A DNA stretch of 64,000 nucleotides from Acidobacteria bacterium Mor1 (lineage in GTDB: Bacteria > Acidobacteriota > Polarisedimenticolia > Polarisedimenticolales > Polarisedimenticolaceae): assembly GCA_001664505.1 (NCBI GenBank), contig CP011806.1, positions 1,239,537 through 1,303,536 of the forward strand, in the 5' to 3' direction. Below are positions 1-56,304 of the stretch, in pieces. Each line of letters opens with the position of its first letter. Positions within the stretch are counted from its first letter, which is position 1. A program made the translations under genes and the position numbers. Under the pieces are notes generated by a model. It made no database searches. It was not told the DNA's origin and saw only the letters and a list, made by a program, of their open reading frames with translations.

Positions 1-292
1 GGCAGATCTGTGACGACTCGCGACTGCTCAACAGACCGAAGCGAATGATCGAGTCGAGATCTCCTCCGGACTCGATGTGGTTCGCGGCGGAGCCGTGACA
101 GGATTCACAGCCCGCCTCGGGGAAATCCGACGCCGAACCGTGCCCCGTATGCAACCAGTTCTCGGCGACCGGCTCGTGACAGGCGACGCAACTCTCGTCT
201 CCCGCGTACTCCCCTTCGGCAGCCGCGGGGATCCATGCGGCGGCGAAGAAGACTACGAGCCCGATCCACGTGACCAACCCGCGGTGTCCCAT
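1..292 (-). CDS. Multihaem c-type cytochrome (DmsE-like), N-terminal part
   Basis: The gene runs off the left edge of the window. The ATG at 292 opens a frame with a hydrophobic signal peptide ending in an alanine-rich cleavage region, followed by two CxxCH haem sites (CVACH and CESCH) within about 45 residues. The residues around the haems (DESCVACHEPV, CESCHG.AANHIESGG) match the repeat pattern of periplasmic multihaem cytochromes such as the decahaem DmsE family, which carry electrons to terminal reductases. Only about 97 residues are visible, so haem number and partner are unknown. It lies on the same strand as the monohaem cytochrome gene upstream, with a 140-base gap. Confidence 0.8.
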   Translation of the reverse strand, partial: MGHRGLVTWIGLVVFFAAAWIPAAAEGEYAGDESCVACHEPVAENWLHTGHGSASDFPEAGCESCHGSAANHIESGGDLDSIIRFGLLSSRESSQIC

Positions 293-432
293 GGTGTCCC
301 CCTCTCGACTCGGATCGTTCCGGTGAGCGATGTCCGAGGAGATAGAAACACCGAGAGCCGTCGCGACACAAGGCCGCGAGCGGACCGATCGGGTTCACAA
401 TTGGCGGCGCGGCGCCCTTTTGAAGTGCGGGA

Positions 433-789
433 CTACGGTTGCGCTTCGAGCCAGGTGACGATCTTCCGTAGTTCGTCTTCCTTACCCTCGAATGCCTTGA
501 CGTGCTTCTTGCCGTCGAGGTCCGCTTCTTTCCGCAGGTAGCGTTCGAGCCACCCTTCCTCGTACTCGGCGGCGAGTCCCTTGAGGTCCGGCCCGGTCAT
601 CTTTCCCTTCATCTTGGCCTCGATACCGGCCGAGGAGACGGCGTGGCAGAGGTTGCATTTGGCGGCGATGAAGGCGGTTTCACCGGGATCGCGCTCGGCG
701 GCGACGACGGTCTGATGAGGCACGGCGAGTTGCGCGACGATCAACGCCGTCGCGATCAGGATGAATGCGGCTGCCAGTACTCTCTTCAT
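433..789 (-). CDS. Small class I cytochrome c, periplasmic
   Basis: The protein has 118 residues with an N-terminal hydrophobic signal segment (about 1-30), one CNLCH haem-binding site near residue 46, and a downstream KMTGPDL segment where a class I cytochrome c would supply its methionine ligand. The likely role is a periplasmic single-electron carrier. The ATG at 789 is preceded by a strong AGGAGGTGAT Shine-Dalgarno. The neighbouring multihaem cytochrome gene on the same strand suggests a shared respiratory function. The partner oxidoreductase cannot be named from the window. Confidence 0.87.
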   Translation of the reverse strand: MKRVLAAAFILIATALIVAQLAVPHQTVVAAERDPGETAFIAAKCNLCHAVSSAGIEAKMKGKMTGPDLKGLAAEYEEGWLERYLRKEADLDGKKHVKAFEGKEDELRKIVTWLEAQP

Positions 790-862
790 CGGATCACCTC
801 CTGAAGAGGACTGTAGCAGTCGGCGGAGCCGCGAAAGCGGACTCGATCGCTCGTCAATGGAG

Positions 863-879
863 CCCGCCCGCCGGGCGGG
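863..879 (-). terminator. GC-rich hairpin directly after feoB
   Basis: A 7-bp perfect stem (CCCGCCC/GGGCGGG) with a 3-base loop begins one base past the feoB stop codon. There is no T tract, so it may be a 3' end stabiliser or a weak terminator rather than a classical intrinsic terminator. Confidence 0.45.
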
Positions 880-3105
880 TCAACCGGCGGCGATGCGCCA
901 GATCTGGGCCACCAGAAAGCAGAGCACGAAACCCATGACCAGCGGCAGGAGCGCAGAGACCGCGGTCCAGCGAGCGCTCTTGGTCTCCTTCCAGATCGTA
1001 TAGATCGTGGTCGAGCAGGGGTTGTGCACGAGGCTGAACAACATCAGGTTCACGCCCATCAGCAGCGTCCAGCCGCCGTCGCGCAGCACGCCCCCCATGG
1101 CGCTTACGCTGTCGAGTTCGAACATCACCCCGGCGCCCTCTCCCACGTCACTCATCCCCGAGGTCAACACCGTGAGCATCAGGACGGTGGGGATCACGAT
1201 CTCGTTGGCCGGGATGGCCAAGACGTAGGCCACCAGGATCACGCCGCTGAGTCCGATCAACATCCCGAAGGGGTCGAGGCTCTGAACCAGATGTTGGGCC
1301 AGGGAAGCGTCGCCGGCATGGACGTTGGACAGCGTCCAGATCAGGGCGCCGGCGGGGATGGCGAACAGCACCGCCCGGCCCAGAACGATCAAGGTGCGAT
1401 CGATCAGCGAGGTGTAGAGGGTCTGCAGCAGGCGCGGCGGCCGGTACGGCGGCAGCTCCAGACTGAAGGTCGACACCTCGCCGCGCAGCACCGTGCGTGA
1501 CAGTCCCCAGGAAACCAGGAAGGTCAACAGGATCCCCAGCACGGCGACGGAGACCACCGCCGCGGCCGAGACGAACCCCGCCAGGTACGGAGGCGCCAGG
1601 GAACCGATGAAGATCGTGGCGATCATGATCTGCGTCGGCCAGCGGCCGTTGCACAGGGCGAAGTTGTTGGTGATGATCGCGATCAGGCGCTCCCGCGGGC
1701 TGTCGATGATGCGGGTCGCGACCACCCCGGCGGCGTTGCAGCCGAAGCCCATCGCCATGGTCAACGCCTGGCGGCCGTGGGCCCCGACCCGCTGGAACAT
1801 CTTGTCCAGGTTGAAGGCGACCCTGGGTAGGTAGCCGAGATCCTCGAGCAGGGTGAAGATCGGGAAGAAGATCGCCATCGGCGGCAGCATCACCGCGATG
1901 ACCCACGCGGTACCGAGGTAGATCCCGTCGAGCAGCAGGCCGTCGAGCCACCAGGGCAAACCGGCCGAGGCGGACAGCCCCTTGAGGAAGGGGTGGATCG
2001 TGTCGAGCAGCAGCGTGGCCAGCATGCTCGACGGCACGTTGGCGCCGGCGATGGTGGCCCAGAAGACCACCGCCAGCATCAACAGCATCAGCGGGAAGCC
2101 GAAGATCCGGCTGGTGATCAGCCGGTCGATCATCTGCTCGAAGTGCAGCGCCCGGGTACGCCCCTCGCGGGCGCTGACCCGGTCGGCGATACGCGCCGCC
2201 TCGGCGTAGATCGTCTCGACCAGCGCCTGGTGCGAGCCGGAACCGATCTGCCAGCGCAGCCGCGAGGCCTCGTCGAGCAGGGTCCCCGCCGCGTCGGCGG
2301 GTGCTTCGCCGCCGGCCTCGGCTGCATCCGGCGGACGTAGCCCCGCGAGTTCGCCGCCGCGCACCGCCTCGACGATCCGCTCGTCTCCGTCCAGAAGCCG
2401 GAGCGCGATCCACTGGGCGTTGGGCAAACCGGGCGCGGCCACCGCCACCAACTCCGACAAACGCTCCACCGCGCGGCGTAGCGGGCGCGGCCGGCCGCCG
2501 ACCCGGCGCGGGCGGCAGACGAACTCACCGCTGGCGACCTGCGCGATGGCCTGATTCAGCTCCTGCAGGCCCTGGCCGAAGCGGGCCGAGGTGGCCACCA
2601 CCGGGACGCCGAGTTCGCGGGACAGGCTGCGCACGTCGATCTCGATGCCGTGACGCCGCGCCTCGTCCATCAGGTTGAGGCAGACCACCGCGCGATCGGT
2701 GATTTCCAACACCTGGAGCGCCAGGTTGAGGTTGCGCTCGAGCCGGGTGGCGTCGACGACGATGACCGTGACGTCGGGACTGCCGAACAGGATGAAGTCC
2801 CGTGCGATCTCCTCGTCGTAGGACGAAGAAAGCAACGAGTAGGTTCCGGGCAGGTCGATCAGTTTGAAGCGGGAGTCCCCGAACTCGAAGCCGCCTTCGG
2901 CCCGGGTCACCGTCTTGCCCGGCCAGTTGCCGGTGTGCTGCCGCAACCCGGTCAGCGCGTTGAACACGGTGCTCTTGCCGGTGTTGGGGTTGCCGGCCAG
3001 GGCGACGACGTAGTCCCAGCTGTCCATCTCGACACCGAGACGAACCAGATGCGCCCGGTTGTGAGCGGGACAGCTCGCGCAGTTTTCGGGACTGGGTGCG
3101 CTCAC
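880..3105 (-). CDS. feoB: Ferrous iron transporter FeoB
   Basis: FeoB is the inner-membrane ferrous iron uptake protein with a cytoplasmic G domain. Visible motifs are a GNPNTGKS P-loop (residues 38-45), DLPG (84-87) and an NLMD guanine-specificity segment. A helical linker and a polytopic membrane domain with Gate and Core motifs follow, including a GCNAAGV stretch. The length of 741 residues is normal for the family. The N terminus carries a CASCPAH segment that could bind metal. It starts with GTG at 3105, and its first bases overlap the stop of the upstream FeoA-domain regulator (GTGA), so the two are almost certainly co-transcribed and coupled. Confidence 0.97.
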   Translation of the reverse strand: MSAPSPENCASCPAHNRAHLVRLGVEMDSWDYVVALAGNPNTGKSTVFNALTGLRQHTGNWPGKTVTRAEGGFEFGDSRFKLIDLPGTYSLLSSSYDEEIARDFILFGSPDVTVIVVDATRLERNLNLALQVLEITDRAVVCLNLMDEARRHGIEIDVRSLSRELGVPVVATSARFGQGLQELNQAIAQVASGEFVCRPRRVGGRPRPLRRAVERLSELVAVAAPGLPNAQWIALRLLDGDERIVEAVRGGELAGLRPPDAAEAGGEAPADAAGTLLDEASRLRWQIGSGSHQALVETIYAEAARIADRVSAREGRTRALHFEQMIDRLITSRIFGFPLMLLMLAVVFWATIAGANVPSSMLATLLLDTIHPFLKGLSASAGLPWWLDGLLLDGIYLGTAWVIAVMLPPMAIFFPIFTLLEDLGYLPRVAFNLDKMFQRVGAHGRQALTMAMGFGCNAAGVVATRIIDSPRERLIAIITNNFALCNGRWPTQIMIATIFIGSLAPPYLAGFVSAAAVVSVAVLGILLTFLVSWGLSRTVLRGEVSTFSLELPPYRPPRLLQTLYTSLIDRTLIVLGRAVLFAIPAGALIWTLSNVHAGDASLAQHLVQSLDPFGMLIGLSGVILVAYVLAIPANEIVIPTVLMLTVLTSGMSDVGEGAGVMFELDSVSAMGGVLRDGGWTLLMGVNLMLFSLVHNPCSTTIYTIWKETKSARWTAVSALLPLVMGFVLCFLVAQIWRIAAG

Positions 3106-4121
3106 GCCACCCTCCGTTCGATACGGACCATGTCCGCCTGGGCCTGACGCAAGGCGATCAGTGCGCCCCGCACCCGGAAGGCGATCGGATCGCCGCCGGG
3201 TCCGGTCAACTCACGCTCGACGACGGTGCCGGGAACGAAACCGAGGTCGAGCAGCCGCCTGCGTTCGATGGCGCGGCAGGACGCGGCCAGGCCGACCACC
3301 CGGGCGCTCTCGCCTCCTTCGAGCTCGGAGAGGCGGTCACTGGCAACGGGCTCGGTCTCGCCGGCGCCTTGAACCACCCAGAGGTTCGCGGCCAGCACCG
3401 GGGTCAGTTCGAGCAGACGGCCGCCGGCGTCGACTCGGATGTAGCGGCCGGTGCTGTCGAGCATGCGCAGCACCTGCCCCGGATGCAGACCGAGCGAGGT
3501 CAATTCGGCGTAGACCGCCTCGGGCTCATCCTCGACGTGAACCACCTCGGCGATGCCGTCGCCGTCGTAGTCGGTCAGCGGCACGCCGCGCCGTGGCGCG
3601 AGTTCACCGCTGGAGGTCGGGATCGGGTCGCCGTGGGGGTCGTAGCGGGGATGGCCCATGCGGGCGGCCATGGCGTCCGCCTCCCGCGGGGTGGTCTGGT
3701 GCTCCCGCCGCTCGGCTTCCTTGTGCCACAGGGACGGCGGCAGGCCGGTCTCGTCGGAAAAATAGCGTTCCCAGAGCCGATGGCTGCGAATGATCCGCCG
3801 GGCGTAGGCCCGCCCCTCGTCGGTCAGGCTGAATACGCCGCCGGACCCCGAGGCCAGCGCCATCCGCTCGAGCCGGGAGAGCAACTCCCCGGCCCGGCGC
3901 CCATGGATCTCGAGGGCCCCCGAGAGGCTGTTCATCGTCGCCGGATGGCCCCGGTACTCACAGTCGTGGAGGTGCTTGAGGGCGTCCTCGACCAGCACCC
4001 GCTCGTTGAGCCGCAGGCGGCGGCCCAGGGAGGCGAGCATGCCCCGCCCCGGCCACAGGGCCAGGATGGTGAGCAATGCGAGGCCCCCGGCGACCGCCAG
4101 TGCCCAGACCGGATCGACCAT
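3102..4121 (-). CDS. Membrane-anchored winged-helix / tandem FeoA-domain regulator
   Basis: The protein has 339 residues. A single N-terminal transmembrane segment (about 5-25) is followed by a DtxR-like winged helix and a linker (about 35-160) containing HxxE-type metal-ligand candidates. Two FeoA/SH3-like domains follow (about 175-250 and 260-335). DtxR/MntR-type repressors sense Fe or Mn, and FeoA domains support FeoB. The order here suggests a protein that couples iron sensing to the transporter encoded next to it. The ATG at 4121 is chosen because GGAGGA precedes it by about 10 bases; an upstream extension would cross the operator. It is coupled to feoB by a 4-base overlap. The membrane anchor is unusual for a DNA-binding DtxR protein. 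Confidence 0.8.
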   Translation of the reverse strand: MVDPVWALAVAGGLALLTILALWPGRGMLASLGRRLRLNERVLVEDALKHLHDCEYRGHPATMNSLSGALEIHGRRAGELLSRLERMALASGSGGVFSLTDEGRAYARRIIRSHRLWERYFSDETGLPPSLWHKEAERREHQTTPREADAMAARMGHPRYDPHGDPIPTSSGELAPRRGVPLTDYDGDGIAEVVHVEDEPEAVYAELTSLGLHPGQVLRMLDSTGRYIRVDAGGRLLELTPVLAANLWVVQGAGETEPVASDRLSELEGGESARVVGLAASCRAIERRRLLDLGFVPGTVVERELTGPGGDPIAFRVRGALIALRQAQADMVRIERRVA

Positions 4122-4149
4122 GTTCGCTTTTTCCTCCGGAACCGACCGA

Positions 4150-4167
4150 TTTTTGATTAACCAAAAA
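4150..4167. promoter_or_regulatory. Candidate iron-regulator operator between divergent genes
   Basis: TTTTTGATTAACCAAAAA is palindromic at 16 of 18 positions. It sits in an AT-rich island between the divergent FeoA-domain regulator (start 4121) and ferritin (start 4306). A GATAAT-like -10 lies at 4179-4184 for the ferritin direction. The position suggests shared metal control, probably by the winged-helix protein encoded next to it. The binding protein is inferred. Confidence 0.55.
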
Positions 4168-4305
4168 CCAGGATCTACGATAATACAACCGCCCCGGTTT
4201 GCAAGCCTTCTGCGCCCCGGCCATTGCCCCGGCTCGCGGCCCTGTCTATCCTCCCCGGGGTCGGGACGTCCCCGACGGGAACACGCGCACACGGAGAAAA
4301 ACGCC

Positions 4306-4830
4306 ATGCCTCAGCTTTCGCCGCGGCTCTGCGAAGCGATCAACGAACAGATCAAGAACGAGATCTCCTCCGCCTACCTCTACCTGGCGATGTCGACCGA
4401 ATGCTCGGCCCGCAGCCTCAACGGCGCCGCCCACTGGCTCCGCCGCCAGTGGGATGAGGAACTGGCCCACGCGACCAAGCTGATCGACTACATGGACGAG
4501 CGGGGGGTCAAATCGGAGTTCCAGTCGATCCCTGCGCCCGAGTTCAAGTTCGAAGGGCTGCTGGCGCTGTTCGAGCAGGCCCTGGCCCACGAACAGAAGG
4601 TGACCCTCTCGATCAACGGTCTGATGGAGAAGGCGATCCAGGAACAGGATCACGCCGCCCAGATCTTCCTGCAGTGGTTCGTCACCGAACAGATCGAGGA
4701 AGAGAACAGCACCGAAGAGGTCGTCGAGATGCTGCGGCTCGCCGGCGACGACGGCTCGGCGCTACTGATCATCGACCAGCGCCTGGGCGCACGCACCGCG
4801 GAAGCCAACGCCGAAGAAGCCGAAGCCTAG
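4306..4830 (+). CDS. ftnA: Non-haem bacterial ferritin
   Basis: This 174-residue four-helix ferritin stores iron in a cytoplasmic 24-mer cage. It aligns in pattern with bacterial FtnA: EQIKNEISSAYLYLAMS in helix A, an EELAHA ferroxidase segment in helix B, a HEQKVT segment in helix C, and QWFVTEQIEEE in helix D. These supply the usual glutamate and histidine ferroxidase ligands. An acidic tail of about 12 residues follows the FtnA-like core. The ATG at 4306 has GGAG nine bases upstream, so longer in-frame extensions are rejected. It is divergent from the iron regulator across a palindromic operator candidate. Confidence 0.95.
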   Translation: MPQLSPRLCEAINEQIKNEISSAYLYLAMSTECSARSLNGAAHWLRRQWDEELAHATKLIDYMDERGVKSEFQSIPAPEFKFEGLLALFEQALAHEQKVTLSINGLMEKAIQEQDHAAQIFLQWFVTEQIEEENSTEEVVEMLRLAGDDGSALLIIDQRLGARTAEANAEEAEA

Positions 4831-4881
4831 AGAGCCCTGGTCCCTGCCGGGACCTCAGCTCCCGAACGGGACATTCAGACA

Positions 4882-4920
4882 GGACCGCCCCGGTGGGCTA
4901 TGCCCCTCCCGGTGCGGTCC
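4882..4920 (+). terminator. Strong hairpin downstream of ferritin
   Basis: GGACCGC pairs with GCGGTCC, and an inner CCGG/CCGG extends the stem with one mismatch. It lies about 50 bases after the ferritin stop. The following bases are C-rich rather than T-rich, so termination strength is uncertain. Confidence 0.55.
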
Positions 4921-5036
4921 CCCGCGCAGTACCATGATCTGCGCGACCCCCGTCAGGCAAACCCGCCGGCGGGGCGAGACGCGCGGCCCGGTCACGGAGG
5001 GCCGCCCCTCCGTCGAACCGGAATGGAGGTGCGGTC

Positions 5037-5495
5037 ATGAAAACTCCCAAGAAGATCCTGCTCACCACGGATTTCTCCGATTGCTCCCGGGAGGCCTTCG
5101 ACGCCGCGAAATCGCTGGCGGAGAAGTTCGACGCCGAGATCCTGCTGCTCTACGTCGACGATGACCGGCTGCCACCGCTGGTCGGTGAGTTCCCGACCCA
5201 GGGGGACCAACTGGCCGAGATCGTGCTCAGCCACCGCAGGCGGGCCTCCGCCGAGCTGGTCAAACTGGCCGGCGCATTGGCCGGCACGGTCAAGGTCAAG
5301 GAGCAGATGCTCTGCGGCACGCCCCATCGCGAGATCGTGCGTTGCGCCGAGGAGGAAGGGGTCGACCTGATCGTGATGGCAACCCACGGACGAGGCTTCC
5401 TGGCCCACGCCCTGCTGGGTTCCACCGTCGAACGGGTGCTGCGCCACGCTCCTTGCCCGGTGCTCTCGGTGCGCGCACACGCGGCAGCGGCCTAG
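5037..5495 (+). CDS. Universal stress protein (UspA family)
   Basis: A single Usp domain of 152 residues. The N terminus KKILLTTDFSD is the usual first strand with the nucleotide-contacting aspartate. The C terminus has DLIVMATHGRG followed by LLGSTVERVLRHAPCPVL, which is the G-x2-G-x9-G(S/T) ATP-binding pattern. Such proteins are cytoplasmic ATP-binding stress or dormancy factors. GGAGGT lies seven bases before the ATG. It is monocistronic and follows the ferritin terminator, consistent with a stress-linked locus but not proof of co-regulation. Confidence 0.94.
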   Translation: MKTPKKILLTTDFSDCSREAFDAAKSLAEKFDAEILLLYVDDDRLPPLVGEFPTQGDQLAEIVLSHRRRASAELVKLAGALAGTVKVKEQMLCGTPHREIVRCAEEEGVDLIVMATHGRGFLAHALLGSTVERVLRHAPCPVLSVRAHAAAA

Positions 5496-5535
5496 CCTCC
5501 AGCCGCAGCGCCGTTCGAAGCGGCTGAACGAAAAA

Positions 5536-5571
5536 GAGCCGGCGCCAGGCAAGATTGCCCAGCGCCGGCTC
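5536..5571 (-). terminator. Rho-independent terminator of the FN3/IPT gene
   Basis: A 10-bp perfect stem (GAGCCGGCGC/GCGCCGGCTC) with an inner GGC/GCC pair is followed, reading the minus strand, by TTTTT at 5535-5531. It therefore terminates the leftward gene ending at 5593. The same stem could also stop rightward transcripts from the stress protein gene. Confidence 0.85.
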
Positions 5572-5592
5572 AGGCCGGGGGGTGTCGAGTTG

Positions 5593-6201
5593 TTACTGTG
5601 CCTGGAGTCCGCTGGGCGGATCGGGCACACCGGCGGAGGGTTCGACGACGGAGAAGACTCCGGCACCGGAACCCGCCACACCGTTGGGGTTCGTGACGGT
5701 CACACTGCGGTTGTTGGCCGCGGCGCCGCCGGCGATGGTGATGTTGGCCGTGATCTGCCCGCAGGCATTTCGGGTGACGCTGTTGACGGTGATCCCGCTA
5801 CCGCCGAACTGCACACCGGCTCCGTTCTGGTAGTTGGTGCCGGTGATCACCACGTTCAGAGTCTGCCCCTGCTCGCCCGAAGAGGGACTTGCCTGGGACA
5901 CGACCGGCCGCGGCCAGCTCTGGATCTCATTGGAGAATCCGGATTCGCCCGCCGCGTTGGACGCGGTCACGGCGAAGTAGTAGTTGGTGCAGTCCTGCAG
6001 CGTACTGATCGACGTCTGCAGTGAGTTTCCAGCGTTCTGGTTACTCGTGTAGTTGCCCGACTGAGTGCCCCAGTAAGCCCGGTAACTGGTGGCATCCGCC
6101 GAAGCATCCCATAACAGCGTGATGTCGCCGGCCGACACGGAGCCGACCGTCAGACATACAGCGCACAACACCCCGGCCGCGTTCCGTAGCAAGTTCGACA
6201 T
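5593..6201 (-). CDS. Secreted FN3 plus IPT/TIG domain protein
   Basis: 202 residues. A signal peptide (about 1-24, ending VSAG) is followed by a fibronectin type III domain (about 26-95, with a typical ITLLWDAS first strand and NYYFAVTASNAAGES near its end). An IPT/TIG immunoglobulin-like domain follows (about 100-185, PVVSQASPSSGEQGQTLNV). These folds are adhesive or structural extracellular modules. No catalytic residues are visible. The ATG at 6201 has GGAGGAGGT immediately upstream. It is a single gene with its own intrinsic terminator. The ligand is unknown. Confidence 0.85.
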   Translation of the reverse strand: MSNLLRNAAGVLCAVCLTVGSVSAGDITLLWDASADATSYRAYWGTQSGNYTSNQNAGNSLQTSISTLQDCTNYYFAVTASNAAGESGFSNEIQSWPRPVVSQASPSSGEQGQTLNVVITGTNYQNGAGVQFGGSGITVNSVTRNACGQITANITIAGGAAANNRSVTVTNPNGVAGSGAGVFSVVEPSAGVPDPPSGLQAQ

Positions 6202-36099: not shown

Positions 36100-36312
36100 C
36101 TTGCCCGGGATACTACCAGCGTGTGGATTACTCGGTCAACGAAGCTGTTTCCGATTTCGTTCGCACGCTAGAATGGCCAGTCTGGAGGGTGCTGAGACAC
36201 TCGATCGAAACGCCTTCGGGCCTGAAGCGACTACGACCAGCGCTCACGCAGCGCTCAAACTTCAGACAAAGCGCCTGGGCCCCGCCCTCAAGTGACAGAA
36301 AACAAAGGCCTG

Positions 36313-36353
36313 GAAGCGCATGGGGACCGGTGTCCCCCGCGGTCTTCAAAACC
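36313..36353 (+). repeat. attachment-site repeat inside selC, right end of island 2
   Basis: Direct repeat of 24079-24119 (40 of 41 identical), covering the tRNA 5' half to two bases past the anticodon loop. Together the two copies bound about 12.2 kb. Confidence 0.92.
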
Positions 36354-36410
36354 GTTTGTCGGGCGGTCGACCCGTCCGGGGTGGGTTCGACTCCCACACG
36401 CTTCCGCCAC
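36313..36410 (+). tRNA. selC: tRNA-Sec (UCA), selenocysteine
   Basis: 98 bases including CCA. Hallmarks of SelC are present: anticodon TCA in loop CTTCAAA, a long acceptor (GGAAGCG/CGCTTCC plus an eighth pair that would be C-A), a 6-bp D stem GGGGAC/GTCCCC with a 4-base loop, a long variable arm (CGGGC/CCCG) and T arm GTGGG-TTCGACT-CCCAC. It implies the host makes selenoproteins. Its 5' half is duplicated at 24079, so the present gene is a hybrid formed by island integration. Confidence 0.93.
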
Positions 36411-41769: not shown

Positions 41770-43212
41770 CTAGCGCCCGGCCCCCAGCTTCGCGCCGTTC
41801 TTCACGCCGACCTGATGCACCTTCATCAAGTTCGTCGACCCCGGCACACCCACCGGCGCGCCGCAGAGCACCACCACCAGCTCTCCCCGCTCGACCATCT
41901 TGCCTCTCAGCAGCGCCCGGTCCAGCTCGGCGAACATCGAGTCGATCGATTTGGCCTTGGCGGCCGCCCGCGGGGTCACCCCCCAGATCAGGCCGAGCTG
42001 ACGGCGCACCGACTGGACCGGTGAAAAGGCCAGGATCGGCGTGCGCGGACGGAACCGCGAAACCGCGCGGGCGGTGGAACCACTCTCGGTAAAAGCGACC
42101 ACGTAGCGCGCACCGACGTTCCGCGCCGTGCGGCAAGCGGCGAGACTCGCCGCCTCGGCGACCGACAGGCTCTCGTAATCGGGAAGCTTGACCCGGACCC
42201 TGCCGGACTTCTCCGCCTCGCGGGTGATGCTGGCCATCATCGAAACCGCCTCGACCGGGTAGTCCCCTACCGCGGTCTCGGCGGTGAGCAGCAGGCAGCT
42301 GCTGCCGTCGAGCACGGCGTTGGCCACGTCCGATGCCTCGGCCCGGGTTGGCCGGGCGTTGTAGCGCATCGAGTCCAGCATCTGGGTCGCGGTCATCACC
42401 GGCTTACCCACGTAGTTACAGAGCTCGATCATCTTCTTCTGTAGCACCGGCACCCGCTCGGGCGGCAGCTCGACACCCAGGTCACCCCGGGCGACCAGCA
42501 GTCCGTCGGATTCCTCGAGGATCGCCTCCAGGTTCTCGATCGCCTCGGGCCGTTCGATCTTGGAGAGGATCGGCATGTTGCTGCCGTGGCGCGCCAGCAG
42601 GCGCCGGGCGGCACGGACGTCCTGAGGGCGGCGCACGAAGGAGACCGCCAACCAGTCGGCGCCCAGTTCCACCGCCAGCTTCAGGTCACGCTTGTCCTTG
42701 GCGGTCAGCGCCGGCACCGGCAGCTCGGTGTCGGGCAGGTTCAGTCCCTTGCGATCGCTGATCTCGCCGCCGCGCACCACCTCGCAGACGATGCGGGGTT
42801 GGCGCACCTTGCTGACCCGCAGTTCGACCTTCCCGTCGTCGATCAGGATCCGGTGCCCGGGGCGCACGACCCCGGCCAGGGCGCGGAAGGGCACCGGGAT
42901 CTGCCCCTTGTCGATCCGCTGATTTCCGGCGCAAAGGGTGACGCCATCCCCGGCCTTGAGCTCCTGGGCCTGGCCCAGCACACCCAGGCGAAAGCGGGGG
43001 CCCTGAAGGTCGGCCATCACCGCCACCGGGTGCTTCAGCCGGGCGGCGACCTTGCGCACCATCTCGACCCGCCGGCGATGATCCTCGGGACCGCCGTGGG
43101 AGAAGTTCAACCGGGCCACATCCAGGCCGGCCTCGACCAGCTTTCGCAGGACTCTCGGGTTGTCGGACGCAGGCCCCAGGGTCCCTGCGATCTTGGCTCG
43201 GGTACGTTCCAC
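41770..43212 (-). CDS. pyk: Pyruvate kinase
   Basis: 480 residues. It converts phosphoenolpyruvate and ADP to pyruvate and ATP in glycolysis. Signatures are RLNFSHGGPEDH, MADLQGPR, the active site ILSKIERPEAIENLEAIL, DGLLVARGDLGVELP and PVMTATQMLDSM, then the C-terminal allosteric domain with AFTESGSTARAVSRFRP. Length is normal for a bacterial enzyme. GTG 43212 is preferred because AGGGAAGGAAA lies upstream and the protein then begins ERTRAKIAGTLGPAS, as usual for the family. Transcribed alone, divergent from the isoaspartyl peptidase gene. Confidence 0.97.
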   Translation of the reverse strand: MERTRAKIAGTLGPASDNPRVLRKLVEAGLDVARLNFSHGGPEDHRRRVEMVRKVAARLKHPVAVMADLQGPRFRLGVLGQAQELKAGDGVTLCAGNQRIDKGQIPVPFRALAGVVRPGHRILIDDGKVELRVSKVRQPRIVCEVVRGGEISDRKGLNLPDTELPVPALTAKDKRDLKLAVELGADWLAVSFVRRPQDVRAARRLLARHGSNMPILSKIERPEAIENLEAILEESDGLLVARGDLGVELPPERVPVLQKKMIELCNYVGKPVMTATQMLDSMRYNARPTRAEASDVANAVLDGSSCLLLTAETAVGDYPVEAVSMMASITREAEKSGRVRVKLPDYESLSVAEAASLAACRTARNVGARYVVAFTESGSTARAVSRFRPRTPILAFSPVQSVRRQLGLIWGVTPRAAAKAKSIDSMFAELDRALLRGKMVERGELVVVLCGAPVGVPGSTNLMKVHQVGVKNGAKLGAGR

Positions 43213-48768: not shown

Positions 48769-50858
48769 CAGGCACCTCCCGTTTCCGAGTCTGCGCCAGC
48801 GGCCAGCGGCACACAGAGCACGAAGTCCGCTCCGCCCCCTTCGCGGTCGCGATAGTCCAGCCGGCCACCGTGGGCCCGCGCGATGGCCCGCGCCTCGTAG
48901 AGGCCGACGCCGATCCCCCGGGGCTTCCCGGTCAATACCTCTCCACCCTGTTCGAAGGGTGCGAAGATCCGCTTGCGATCGGCCTCGGGCACACCCGGGC
49001 CCCGGTCGGCGACTCGCAGCACCACACCCGGCCGGTCTCCATCCTTGCTGCGCAGGTTGGCCTGGCGAATCTGGAGCTTCACCGGACAGGTCGGCGGCGA
49101 GAACTTGAAGGCGTTGTCCAGCATGTTCGACACCGCCCGTGCGAGCTGGCCGGAATCCGCCTGCCAGCCCTCGATCAGGTCGCAGTCCAGTTCGACTCCG
49201 TCGACGCCGGCCAGTTCGATGGCATCGTGGGCCACCGCCGCCGCGTCGGCCGGTCCCACGCGCAGCGGATCGGCGCCGCTTGTGATCTCGGTGGTTCGGA
49301 ACAGATTGTCCAGCAACGCCCCGAGGTTCTCCGAGGCGGCGACGATGGTCTCGAGGGACTCCTTCCGTTCCTCGGCACCGACCTCGTAGTCCCGCAGGAA
49401 GGTCGCTGCCGACAACACCGCGGTCAGCGGGGTCCGCATCTCGTGGGACAGGTTGGCGACGAACCGTTCCTTGGTCTTGTCCAGCGCCTTGAGGTTCTCG
49501 TGGGCCCGGCGAAGCTGTGCGGTTCGCTTCTGCACCAGATCGTCCAGGCGATCCCGGCTGGCGGTCACCTCGTCATGGAGCCGCGCCTTCTCCAACCCCG
49601 ACTCCAGGTGCGACGCCAGGGTGGTCAGGAAGCGGGTATCCCGGGACTCGAAGCGGCCGTCGGGATAGGGAGCGTGGGCCAAGACCACGCGGCCGGCGCC
49701 GACGGGCACCGAGGCGACGGCGCGGGTGCCGACCTGCCGGGCGGCCTGGGGGCCGATCTCGAGACCCACATCGTCGACCACGCAGGCGCCTCCGGCACCG
49801 ATCATGCGCGCGACGAGATCCCGCCCGGAGTCGTTGTCCAGCAGTGGGTCCTGTTCTCCGCCGACCGCCTGCTCCAGGGCCAGGGTGCCCTGCTCCCCTT
49901 CGACGAGGCTGACCACCGAGGCACCGATCACCGAGCGGGCGGCATCCAGCGCCGACTCGACGATCGCTCCCCGGTCGAAGCTGGCGCCGGTGACCTGCAG
50001 GCTGTCGCTCAACTGGCGCAGGGCGTCCGCCTCGTGTTCCAGGCGGTTGGCCAGCGCCGCCTCGGCCGCCAGGCGCTCGCCCAACTCCAGGCTGGCGGCG
50101 ACTGCATCCTCGACACCGTCTCCCTCGACCTTGATCCGCGTGCGGCCCGGGGCGTCCCGGGCATCGGCCACCGGCGAGCTGACGCCGTGAAGCCGCTGGA
50201 TGTGGGGCGCGAAGGCGGTGTCGACCTGCTGGCCCAGCGTGGCGATATCGATCTGCGCCCGGGTCCGGCTGTCGGCCCGGTCGACCAGCCCTTCGATCAT
50301 CCGCTTGCAGGCGTCGACGAAGACTTCCAGCACACCGCGGGACCGCAGGGCCACCGCCGGGTAGCCCTCCCCTGGGTCGAGCCCTAGATAGCGGCTCATC
50401 TCATCGACGTCCAGCGCGTCGGGGACGTCTTGCTTGTTGAACTGGAACAGGATCGGCGTGCGGTCGGGGTCCAGCCCGTTGGCCCGCAGATTGGCGTGGA
50501 GGTTCTGCAGCGCCCACTGATTCTGCTGTTCCTTGCCCGGGGTCGAGTCGGCGACGAACACCACAGCGTCGGCTCCCGCCAGCACGATCCGGCGGGTGGC
50601 GTCGTAGTGCACCTGGCCCGGCACGGTGTAGGCCTTGAGCGCCACTCGGTAGCCGAAGATGTCTCCCAGCTCGAAGGGCAGCAGGTCGAAGTAGAGCGTC
50701 CGGTCGTCTCCGGTGTGGAGCGAGACGAGGCGGTTCTCTCCCCGCGGGTCGGTCAGGCGGTGTAGCGACTCCAGGTTGGTCGTCTTGCCGCCCAGGGCCG
50801 GGCCGTAGTAGACCAGCTTGGCCTGCAGCGTCTTGTCGGTGTGGCTCCACTGGGCCAA
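48768..50858 (-). CDS. MglA-like GTPase / GAF / histidine kinase fusion
   Basis: 696 residues. The N-terminal Ras-like GTPase of the MglA family (about 10-195) has P-loop GPALGGKTT (19-27), TVPGQ (78-82) and NKQD (141-144). A linker and GAF domain follow (about 285-420), then a coiled coil, HisKA (FVANLSHEMRTPL, His472) and a HATPase domain (NMLDNAFKFS, DRGPGVPEADRKRIF, GIGVGLYEARAI). It combines a polarity-type GTP switch with kinase output in one chain. TTG 50858 has GGGAGAGAAG upstream. It lies in a coupled operon with a phosphatase, response regulator and DHp protein. Confidence 0.93.
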   Translation of the reverse strand: MAQWSHTDKTLQAKLVYYGPALGGKTTNLESLHRLTDPRGENRLVSLHTGDDRTLYFDLLPFELGDIFGYRVALKAYTVPGQVHYDATRRIVLAGADAVVFVADSTPGKEQQNQWALQNLHANLRANGLDPDRTPILFQFNKQDVPDALDVDEMSRYLGLDPGEGYPAVALRSRGVLEVFVDACKRMIEGLVDRADSRTRAQIDIATLGQQVDTAFAPHIQRLHGVSSPVADARDAPGRTRIKVEGDGVEDAVAASLELGERLAAEAALANRLEHEADALRQLSDSLQVTGASFDRGAIVESALDAARSVIGASVVSLVEGEQGTLALEQAVGGEQDPLLDNDSGRDLVARMIGAGGACVVDDVGLEIGPQAARQVGTRAVASVPVGAGRVVLAHAPYPDGRFESRDTRFLTTLASHLESGLEKARLHDEVTASRDRLDDLVQKRTAQLRRAHENLKALDKTKERFVANLSHEMRTPLTAVLSAATFLRDYEVGAEERKESLETIVAASENLGALLDNLFRTTEITSGADPLRVGPADAAAVAHDAIELAGVDGVELDCDLIEGWQADSGQLARAVSNMLDNAFKFSPPTCPVKLQIRQANLRSKDGDRPGVVLRVADRGPGVPEADRKRIFAPFEQGGEVLTGKPRGIGVGLYEARAIARAHGGRLDYRDREGGGADFVLCVPLAAGADSETGGA

Positions 50859-53787: not shown

Positions 53788-54327
53788 ATGAACTGCACCC
53801 TGCGCACCGAAACGGAACCGGACCACCCCCGCGTGGCGGCGATCGTCGAAGCCGCCTTTCGCGACGATCCCCACGGCGACCACACCGAACACCACCTGGT
53901 GGCCCGACTGCGGAAGGCTCCCGGCTTCATCCCCGATCTCTCCATCGTGGCGGAGGTCGACGGCCAGTTGCGGGGACACATCCTGCTGACGCCGATCCGG
54001 ATCGTGGACGAGTCCCGGGAGCACCCCTCGTTGGCCCTGGCGCCCGTGTCGGTGGAGCCGGGTCACCAGTCCCGCGGGCTGGGGGGTGCGCTGATCGAGG
54101 AGGCGCATCGCCGCGCTCTGAAGTCGGGGCACGGGTCAGTGGTACTGCTGGGTCATCCGGCCTACTACCCCCGTTTCGGTTACCGGCCGGCGGCGGAATT
54201 CGGCATCGTGCTCCCTTTCGAGGTGCCCGCGGAGTACTGCATGGCGGTGGAGTTGCGCGCAGGCGCACTCGACGGCGTGGCGGGCACCGTGCGCTACCCG
54301 CCGGAATTCTTCGGCGAGTCTCCGTGA
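53788..54327 (+). CDS. GNAT-family N-acetyltransferase (YhbS-like)
   Basis: 179 residues. The acetyl-CoA motif A is LALAPVSVEPGHQSRGLGGALIEEAH (Q/R-x-x-G-x-G), followed by VVLLGHPAYYPRFGYRPA, the typical strand and helix of YhbS-like GNATs. The substrate is unknown. ATG 53788 is only seven bases after TACAAT at 53776, so its mRNA may be leaderless; no Shine-Dalgarno is present. The last 34 bases overlap the convergent LeuRS-like gene. Confidence 0.87.
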   Translation: MNCTLRTETEPDHPRVAAIVEAAFRDDPHGDHTEHHLVARLRKAPGFIPDLSIVAEVDGQLRGHILLTPIRIVDESREHPSLALAPVSVEPGHQSRGLGGALIEEAHRRALKSGHGSVVLLGHPAYYPRFGYRPAAEFGIVLPFEVPAEYCMAVELRAGALDGVAGTVRYPPEFFGESP

Positions 54328-56060
54328 GCGTCGGCATCGGCGCCTGCGCCGCACAGAACCGGCCACGGCTCGCGGACCACGAAGGGAGCCCGGCCGAGCC
54401 ACTGCCACGCCTGCTCCGCCAGATAGGGGGCAAACAGCGAGAGCGGCACGGCACCGGCCGCCAGCAGCCTCTCGAGGATCTCCCGGTCTCCGGAGGAGAG
54501 CCGGCCGCTGCCCAGCCGGCTGCGGGCGAAGCGCTCGATCCGGCGAAAGAGCGCCTCCAGTTCCGCCAGGGCTGCTTGTGGTCGATCAGCCTCGAGCATC
54601 GACGCGATCGCCGCGATGTTTCGCCGGCCTCCGGCTCCGAGTGCCGACCCTGCCCGGGTCGGCGCATCGCCGGGCGCCGCCGGCTCCCCTGCGGCGCACA
54701 CAAAGGCCCGATAGAGCTCGGCAACCGAGCCCAGCCATCGGGCGGCCCGTTCGGGCATCTCGTCGCGCCAGTCGATGGCCCTCAGCGGCGCGGCCGCGCC
54801 GATGACGGCAACCCGCACCGCGTCGGCGCCATGACGTTTGATCAGCGCCGCCGGTGACACGGCGTTACCGAGGTGTTTGCTCATCTTCCGCCCCTGGGCC
54901 AACACCATCTCGTGGCCCCGGTGGCCGAGGATCGGTTCGTCGAAGGGTAGCTCTCCCCGATCGTGAAGCTCGGCGGTGAAGAACCGGTGCAGGTGCAGGT
55001 AGACCACGGTATCGAGCCCACTGTGAAAGCGGTCCACCGGCATCCACGCCGCGACACGCGGCCCGTCGAAGCGAATCGGACCGTCGAGTTCGCACAGGCC
55101 GGCGAGCTGGCACCAGACATCGTCGAAGAAACAGTCCAGGGTCGCGCTCTCCCGAACCGCGGTTCCCGCGCAACGGGGACAGGCAATGTCTCGAAAGTCC
55201 GGATGATCGGCGAGCCCCTTCGCCCCGCGGCTCCAATCGACATCGTCGGGTAGGACGACCGGAAGCTGTTCCTCGGGTACGGCCACCGGTCCGCATGCTG
55301 CGCAGTGCACGATGGGAATCGGCGCCCCCCACGCCCGCTGCCGGGAGATCATCCAGTCCCGCCGCCCGATGCCCGCCCGGCGATCGTCGACCAGCGCCTG
55401 AACCAATCGGCGCACCTGCGGACTCCATCCCGAGAGCCGGTCCAGGCCCGCGAGCAACGACTCGGCCCGGGGAGCGATCTTGACGAACCACTGCCACGAT
55501 CGCCGCAACTCGACCGGCCGGGCGCAACGCCAGCAACGCTCCCGCTCGGTCTGCATGCGGGAAAGGGAGGTGTCGCAGTGTTCGCAATAGGGCACCGCCG
55601 CGAGCCGGCGTTCGATCACCCCCTGCTCGAACCAACGCAGAAAGAGCCCCTGAGTCCAGCGGTAGTACGCCGGGTCGCAGGTGGAACGCACCGACGACCA
55701 GTCGTAGCTGATGCCGAGCCGGCGCATCTGGACTTCCATCGATGCGATCCAACGCTCGACGTGAGCCCGGGGCGAGACGCCGTGCTTGCGCGCTTCGATC
55801 TCGATCGGAATCCCGAAGGCGTCCCACTCGGTGGAGTAGAGCACCGAATCCCCCATCGCCCGGCGGAAGCGGGCGACGATGTCGCCGAGCACATAGGTCC
55901 GCACGTGGCCCATGTGCAGCGGCCCGTTGGGGAAGGGCCCGGAGTCGTAGTTGTAGAACTTGCGCCCGTCGGGAAACCGCGGCGCGCGATAGCACCCGGC
56001 CTCCTCCCAGGACTTCGCGATACGCGGCTCGTGATCGCGGGGATCGTAGGATCCGCCCAA
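54294..56060 (-). CDS. LeuRS-like class I aminoacyl-tRNA synthetase lacking the editing domain
   Basis: 588 residues against roughly 820-880 for bacterial LeuRS. Catalytic signatures are present: the HIGH-type motif GPLHMGHVRTYVLGDIVARF, EWDAFGIPIE, a ZN-1-like CEHCDTSLSRMQ...CWRCARPVE, a second CAACG...CPRCAG pair and GRKMSKHLGNAVSP. The chain passes from IGRRDWMISRQRAWGAPIP straight to the second half, with no CP1 editing insertion. It ends after a short anticodon-domain segment without the LeuRS C-terminal domain. TTG 56060 follows GGAGGGGCGAGG. It sits 17 bases after an apparently interrupted tRNA-Asn on the same strand. It is probably a paralogue with a special substrate rather than the housekeeping enzyme. 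Confidence 0.88.
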   Translation of the reverse strand: MGGSYDPRDHEPRIAKSWEEAGCYRAPRFPDGRKFYNYDSGPFPNGPLHMGHVRTYVLGDIVARFRRAMGDSVLYSTEWDAFGIPIEIEARKHGVSPRAHVERWIASMEVQMRRLGISYDWSSVRSTCDPAYYRWTQGLFLRWFEQGVIERRLAAVPYCEHCDTSLSRMQTERERCWRCARPVELRRSWQWFVKIAPRAESLLAGLDRLSGWSPQVRRLVQALVDDRRAGIGRRDWMISRQRAWGAPIPIVHCAACGPVAVPEEQLPVVLPDDVDWSRGAKGLADHPDFRDIACPRCAGTAVRESATLDCFFDDVWCQLAGLCELDGPIRFDGPRVAAWMPVDRFHSGLDTVVYLHLHRFFTAELHDRGELPFDEPILGHRGHEMVLAQGRKMSKHLGNAVSPAALIKRHGADAVRVAVIGAAAPLRAIDWRDEMPERAARWLGSVAELYRAFVCAAGEPAAPGDAPTRAGSALGAGGRRNIAAIASMLEADRPQAALAELEALFRRIERFARSRLGSGRLSSGDREILERLLAAGAVPLSLFAPYLAEQAWQWLGRAPFVVREPWPVLCGAGADADAHGDSPKNSGG

Positions 56061-56076: not shown

Positions 56077-56304
56077 TGGTACGCCCGACGGGAATCGAAC
56101 CCGCGTCTCCGGCTTAACAGGCCGGCGCTCTAGCAGACCTGGGTCGTGCAGATCCGTCGGCGCCCGAAGCGCGTCGGTAGGCCGATTGAACCGGATTCCG
56201 GGTGCGGGTGGCGAAGAAGTGCCCTCCCGTACGTCCGATCCTCGTCCCCACCGAAACGTCTCTGCACGCGCCAGGCCCGGCTTGGTCCATTGAGCTACGG
56301 GCGC
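56077..56304 (-). tRNA. tRNA-Asn (GTT) interrupted in the D loop by about 148 bases
   Basis: The 3' part (about 56077-56137) has anticodon arm CCGGC-CTGTTAA-GCCGG (GTT), T arm GCGGG-TTCGATT-CCCGT, acceptor CGGGCGT, discriminator A and encoded CCA. The 5' part (56304-56286) reads GCGCCCGTAGCTCAATGGA and pairs with that acceptor (six Watson-Crick pairs and one G-U). Between them lie about 148 bases that contain the inverted repeat CGTGCAGA/TCTGCACG. It may be a disrupted gene, a hybrid of two tRNA relics (the 5' part also fits tRNA-Arg), or an unusual intron. Confidence 0.55.

Follow-up and report, generated by a model that had tools for sequence, protein, structure and literature searches.

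A tRNA(GUU) gene with a folded D-arm domain and its LeuRS-like neighbour: a candidate dedicated synthetase/tRNA pair in bacteria

The window, a stretch of 64,000 nucleotides from the genome of Acidobacteria bacterium Mor1, carries two neighbouring genes on its minus strand: a tRNA gene with an extended D arm and the anticodon GUU (56077-56304, 228 nt including the encoded CCA) and a gene for a LeuRS-like synthetase of 588 amino acids, here termed LeuRS* (54294-56060). The tRNA gene runs from G1 at 56304 to the CCA at 56079-56077, and the TTG start codon of LeuRS* at 56060 lies 17 bases past it. The position of the tRNA gene and the 17-base distance had been given correctly by a sequence-only reading of the window, which had also put the CCA in the 3′ part of the gene. 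From 56304 to 56077 the minus strand reads GCGCCCG-TA-GCTC-AATGG-[156 nt]-GAGC-G-CCGGC-CTGTTAA-GCCGG-AGAC-GCGGG-TTCGATT-CCCGT-CGGGCGT-A-CCA, and its assignment to the tRNAs draws on the fold, the Rfam tRNA model, homologues, and covariation in the cloverleaf.

The acceptor stem that the same reading had assembled from the two parts of the gene is fully paired: GCGCCCG (56298-56304) and CGGGCGU (56081-56087) form seven of seven pairs, including one G-U. The 5′ strand of the D stem, GCUC (56292-56295), and the D-loop sequence AAUGG with G18G19 (56287-56291) make up 56287-56295, the anticodon arm occupies 56109-56125 with GUU at 56116-56118, and the T arm, GCGGGTTCGATTCCCGT, occupies 56088-56104. 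The window RNA is complete in its tRNA elements (U8, A14, G18G19, GUU in a 7-nt anticodon loop, the T-loop TTCGA, A73, CCA) and has the four-arm cloverleaf, 7-bp acceptor, and 3′ CCA, or a site for it, that define the tRNA structural class. Folded without constraint, the 227 nt as a whole reach their minimum free energy (−109.8 kcal/mol, z −2.5) as a complete cloverleaf, with the insert as a closed hairpin domain within the D-loop. The Rfam tRNA model scores 34.6 bits on the 3′ part of the gene and recognises no other part of it, and ARAGORN did not call the gene in the window. The split-architecture pattern matched once in the window and in none of 100 shuffles; a sigma-70 promoter scan gave no match. 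Elsewhere in the window, a tRNA-Sec gene is predicted at 36312-36409 on the plus strand, so that the organism may also use selenocysteine, and two ARAGORN calls, tRNA-Gly(acc) at 42036-42128 and tRNA-Ala(cgc) at 49493-49584, are probably false, being without Rfam tRNA support in the genome-wide search.

The insert domain spans 56131-56286 when measured from AAUGG to GAG (156 nt, with A20 as its first base); placed just after G18G19A20, it comes to about 150-156 nt, according to the point at which the D-loop is divided. The sequence-only reading had described a split of about 148 bases with an 8-bp inverted repeat. The length was underestimated, and the repeat stands: it is P1b, the inner of two stacked stems. 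In the predicted fold, the insert is a long two-part helix followed by a branched tip that comprises one long arm and one short hairpin. Stem P1a (8 bp; 5′ arm GGGCCTGG, 56271-56278; 3′ arm 56135-56142) begins 8 nt past G19; a 2x2 internal loop separates it from P1b (8 bp; 5′ arm CGTGCAGA, 56261-56268; 3′ arm TCTGCACG, 56145-56152). The tip hairpin P3, GCGCTTCGGGCGC (56160-56172), becomes GTGCTCCGGGCAC in the related locus L044 and GTGCATCGGGCAC in L167, with a compensatory change from C-G to T-A.

Inserts of 138-156 nt are found at the same position in all four genomes that carry this RNA (described below). Their ends pair beyond shuffled sequence (p 0.001, 0.013, 0.005, and 0.04; combined 4e-6), and each has a stem like P1b, 7-8 bp or longer, that starts 16-20 nt inside the 5′ end and stops 14-19 nt short of the 3′ end. 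A helix in the P1b register is significant over the four inserts (combined p 9e-5), and its base pairs differ at most positions. Overall fold stability exceeds that of shuffles in three of the four, the L044 insert being no more stable than its shuffles. As identity between the copies is 42-59% against 43-50% for shuffled sequence, what the inserts have in common is a predicted architecture rather than a sequence. An Rfam search of the inserts found no intron, ribozyme, or any other family at E<=1. Two further candidates were set aside: a selfish intron with a reading frame, as the insert contains no ORF, and a tmRNA, to which the only likeness was a 15-nt match in the Pirellulales copy.

These features bear on whether the domain stays in the RNA. 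The sequence-only reading had recognised an interruption of the D loop, which is confirmed, and had set it against the known bacterial tRNA introns. That the insert is an intron is unproven: no Rfam intron family matches, its site is in the variable part of the D-loop, and it may simply be a permanent extension of the D arm. Excision followed by joining of the halves, for example by RtcB, would yield a tRNA of ordinary size, to be charged by LeuRS* and to decode AAU and AAC. This is the main rival to the reading that we prefer, though we regard it as unlikely. It would account for the normal core nucleotides and the normal length after splicing, a helix brings the ends of the insert together, and RtcB is encoded in all four genomes, so that excision and ligation would be possible. 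Against it, RtcB occurs widely (in 9 of 14 control genomes), the insert matches no group I or group II intron or other Rfam family, and its predicted fold has no bulge-helix-bulge, the junction at the D stem being an asymmetric internal loop of 9 nt against 1-2. Known bacterial tRNA introns, moreover, sit at position 37/38 (PMC4033280), and this insert follows position 20. A second alternative, an improbable one, is nicking without ligation: an enzyme such as RNase III might cut the insert at the long stem and the ends might stay unjoined, so that base pairing would hold the tRNA together in two pieces, as with the intervening sequences of 23S rRNA. The two stacked stems that close the insert, with a helix in the P1b register in all four copies, would suit such cleavage, but 2x2 internal loops interrupt P1a/P1b, and only the D stem and the acceptor would link the pieces. 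We lean slightly towards retention of the domain in the mature RNA.

What kind of tRNA carries this domain is less plain than its anticodon. The name tRNA-Asn, given by the sequence-only reading, holds for the anticodon, which is GUU in all four copies, and fails for the body: the discriminator is A73 in three copies and G73 only in G004, and the closest tRNA of the host to the body of the window RNA is tRNA-Arg(UCU). The two have the acceptor GCGCCCG/CGGGCGU, the D-arm sequence, and the overall core in common, and differ in the anticodon, the T arm, A73, and the D-arm domain. The host genome (G000; one contig of 5.985 Mb, 99.98% complete) encodes a full ordinary tRNA set, and the search for another intact tRNA-Asn that had been proposed found an ordinary tRNA-Asn(GUU) with G73 at G000:C1:4310272. 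Since a normal tRNA-Asn and a normal LeuRS are both present in the host, 'tRNA-Asn' merely labels the anticodon, and the window RNA is an additional tRNA bearing an Asn anticodon, not an interrupted essential tRNA-Asn.

The host genome also contains, at G000:C1:1399700-1400200, a 5′ fragment of tRNA-Arg(UCU) that ends inside the anticodon stem and continues into unrelated sequence and a terminator-like hairpin; it resembles an attachment-site remnant. Its existence, together with the likeness of the window RNA to tRNA-Arg(UCU), is what could be said for a dead gene, in which a tRNA-Arg fragment or attachment-site remnant happened to become fused to a 3′ part resembling that of tRNA-Asn. The same split RNA, its stems covarying, nonetheless accompanies LeuRS* in every one of four genomes from at least two phyla, and this conservation excludes a dead relic for practical purposes. 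An intact tRNA-Asn elsewhere with no RNA from this locus, or a 5′ part that is a tRNA-Arg relic, had been named by the sequence-only reading as observations that would speak against its proposal. Both were made in part, an intact tRNA-Asn being present and the 5′ part being tRNA-Arg-like; they are overridden because the RNA is conserved across phyla, and the relic they would imply is not borne out.

LeuRS* carries HMGH at residues 49-52 and KMSKH at 392-396, and was assigned from Pfam/NCBIfam models, an AF2 model, a tree, and pocket residues. It retains the class I core (HMGH/HLGH and KMSK), the zinc cysteines, and the anticodon-binding bundle, and scores 343 bits against the LeuRS model, below the curated cut-off of 548. 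The AF2 model (mean pLDDT 90.7) best matches LeuRS (VIA-align Z 45.8, rmsd 2.6 over 561 residues) and aligns with the CP1-less LeuRS of Mycoplasma mobile (3ziu) with Z 40.1 and rmsd 2.5 over 545 residues. None of the four LeuRS* enzymes has a CP1 editing domain or a C-terminal domain. In the tree, these four form one clade (97/85) that is joined by a single Rhodobacter enzyme (100/100) and lies far outside canonical LeuRS. LeuRS* thus has the catalytic core of a LeuRS and departs from one in its domains, pocket residues, model score, and tree placement. All four genomes also encode a canonical LeuRS, which in the host groups with a Terriglobia sequence. Fixed in all four LeuRS* are the changes M40 to S, Y43 to F, H75 to Y, and EHAILH to D350-T-x-x-Y354, at positions which, judging by known structures of LeuRS, we take to border the leucine pocket. 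The altered pocket leads us to infer a substrate other than leucine, which is probable on this evidence.

A tblastn search of plasmids and phages returned mostly ordinary LeuRS and CP1-less LeuRS paralogues of cyanobacteria, which are without the RNA and fall inside canonical LeuRS. On cyanobacterial plasmids (Nostoc, Aulosira, and Kovacikia; L128 4930-5055, L129, L130), a very short conserved reading frame, itself followed by an inverted repeat, lies ahead of these paralogues, possibly as a leader-peptide control; it reads MHDWDL* in Nostoc, MMHDWDL* in Aulosira, and MMHHWDL* in Kovacikia. An uncultured huge phage (L131, LR756501.1) has a CP1-less LeuRS-like gene near a cluster of five tRNA-Leu genes; ARAGORN puts an intron in another tRNA-Leu(UAA) nearby.

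Besides the host, three genomes carry the split RNA, two of the host's class and one of the Pirellulales. In a metagenome-assembled genome titled Acidobacteria (L044/L048; host's class, different family), the enzyme is 51% identical and the split tRNA lies directly upstream. The same arrangement is found, with an enzyme 41% identical, in a Pirellulales metagenome-assembled genome (L050) recovered by a scan of 84,980 species genomes. The third, G004 of the host's class, has no tRNA beside the enzyme, and a genome-wide tRNA scan located its split RNA on another contig between unrelated neighbours, a beta-lactamase-fold gene and a gene for a large repeat protein. In three of the four genomes, the RNA thus lies on the same strand as the enzyme gene and directly upstream of it, 17-50 nt before the start codon. 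The family is known from these four members, three of which are draft metagenome-type assemblies.

The RNA cores of the four copies are 75-96% identical. Of the cloverleaf cells, 98.8% are paired, and 4 compensatory changes affect both sides of a pair; slid controls lose this support. Three pairs of the anticodon stem have changed on both sides, and in L050 a compensatory change has turned a CG pair of the acceptor into UA. The T arm is invariant, and the D-stem 5′ strand and D-loop sequence are the same in all four copies except L050, in which the strand is GCUU and pairing is kept. Other deviations are C33 and G73 in G004, the lack of an encoded CCA in L050, and a U31-C39 mismatch in the anticodon stem of L044. 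Judged by these alignments, the RNA is under structural selection.

Its position suggests one more alternative, that of a cis-acting tRNA-like leader which would control translation of the LeuRS* mRNA, as in E. coli thrS. Such a role fits the close, same-strand placement in three genomes, and we consider it very unlikely: the T arm and acceptor stem are complete, the CCA is usually kept, and in G004 the RNA gene stands on a separate contig amid unrelated genes. As the G004 RNA is encoded away from the enzyme, the RNA gene is trans-acting.

RNA and enzyme occur together in all four enzyme-bearing genomes. Among 396 genomes of the phylum set, the RNA pattern matches exactly the three that bear the enzyme and is absent from the remaining 393; as the pattern was built from the members, with one position relaxed for G004, this shows the absence elsewhere of close copies only. 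No additional member was found in 392 Planctomycetota or in 296 genomes of the Pirellulales member's order. Viral contigs yielded no LeuRS* and 24 matches to the RNA pattern, all of them chance or two adjacent ordinary tRNAs. The flanking genes that can be named are those for AdoMet decarboxylase and a purF-like protein by L044 and those for a glycosyltransferase, an AraC-type regulator, and a GNAT protein in the window; these do not recur between genomes, and therefore no pathway is suggested.

Because the pair recurs in distant bacteria, it looks like a dedicated system and not a broken gene. RNA and enzyme co-occur strictly and stand beside normal counterparts (for tRNA-Asn, as established in the host genome). 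That the two form a real, conserved pair is very probable, and the functional pair that the sequence-only reading had envisaged is strongly supported by this conservation and co-occurrence. The RNA would quite probably be charged by LeuRS*. We favour, with fair confidence, a rare and probably horizontally spread aaRS/tRNA pair that is dedicated to charging with an amino acid other than leucine and in which the D-arm domain serves as an identity element.

The proposed mechanism is as follows. LeuRS* would activate an amino acid other than leucine and load it onto the extended-D-arm RNA, in which the domain would stay as an element of identity and orthogonality, warding off other synthetases. 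The C-terminal domain of ordinary LeuRS holds the tRNA elbow, and LeuRS enzymes prefer A73, the discriminator found in three of the four copies. The D-arm domain is expected to jut from the tRNA elbow, where ordinary LeuRS uses the C-terminal domain that LeuRS* has lost; since a protein domain was lost and an RNA domain gained at the same site, we propose that the latter is the recognition handle. The charged RNA may then serve a special purpose, restricted decoding of AAY or a non-ribosomal transfer, and not bulk translation. Use outside ordinary elongation is evenly balanced in our judgement: the absence of editing and the C33 of the G004 copy are weak arguments in its favour, and conservation of the GUU anticodon is a weak argument for decoding or anticodon recognition. 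The fullest form of this proposal, which we put forward tentatively, is a natural orthogonal pair of a minimal LeuRS-derived enzyme, a non-standard or unexpected amino acid, and a tRNA(GUU) that keeps a domain of about 155 nt, the RNA domain replacing the lost elbow-gripping protein domain and the pair re-reading AAY in chosen messages or feeding a non-ribosomal reaction.

Bacterial tRNA genes have been described as surprisingly uniform, group I and group II introns at position 37/38 being the only significant exception (PMC4033280), and passages of a review of non-canonical tRNAs that deal with the D arm, the D-loop or insertions describe no large D-arm domain (PMC7609411). Open-licence papers contained no report of this RNA/enzyme system or of a large folded D-arm domain in bacteria, and the system looks previously undescribed. 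If the proposal is true, the D-arm-extended tRNA and the editing-free synthetase dedicated to it constitute a new natural aaRS/tRNA pair, possibly ready-made as an orthogonal pair for code expansion. The pair raises the question of whether a tRNA is charged in an unusual way here or is used off the ribosome, and it suggests an RNA-protein co-evolution in which RNA mass was added at the elbow in place of lost protein.

Group I intron-containing bacterial tRNA genes likewise consist of two parts separated by a structured insert; here, however, the insert is in the D-loop, is too short, and has neither an Rfam intron match nor an endonuclease ORF. Bacterial LeuRS (TIGR00396) has in common with LeuRS* the class Ia catalytic fold, the zinc cysteines, and the anticodon-binding bundle, and provides its best structural matches, whereas LeuRS* is without the CP1 and C-terminal domains, has a changed pocket and KMSKH/KMSKR in place of KMSKS, and is partnered by a tRNA without a long variable arm. 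The LeuRS of Mycoplasma mobile (3ziu) also lacks CP1, yet is a true LeuRS. The LeuRS-like enzyme of Rhodobacter sp. MO_188.B50 (L051, JASJDP010000001.1) is sister to the LeuRS* clade, with F43, Y75, D350, and Y354 in common. It differs in its length of 712 amino acids, in a shrunken CP1, and in its surroundings, with no extended tRNA within 10 kb; at 205-6112, its gene stands in a row with SPASM radical-SAM, HPr-kinase-like, and B12-binding radical-SAM genes, which suggests a tRNA-dependent biosynthetic cluster. The known systems of the PylRS/tRNA-Pyl type differ from the present pair, which has a LeuRS-derived class I enzyme, a sense anticodon (GUU against CUA), a D-arm domain of 138-156 nt, and no linked biosynthetic genes in view. 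What the two have in common is an extra synthetase with its own tRNA of odd structure, usually encoded as neighbours and distributed patchily across phyla.
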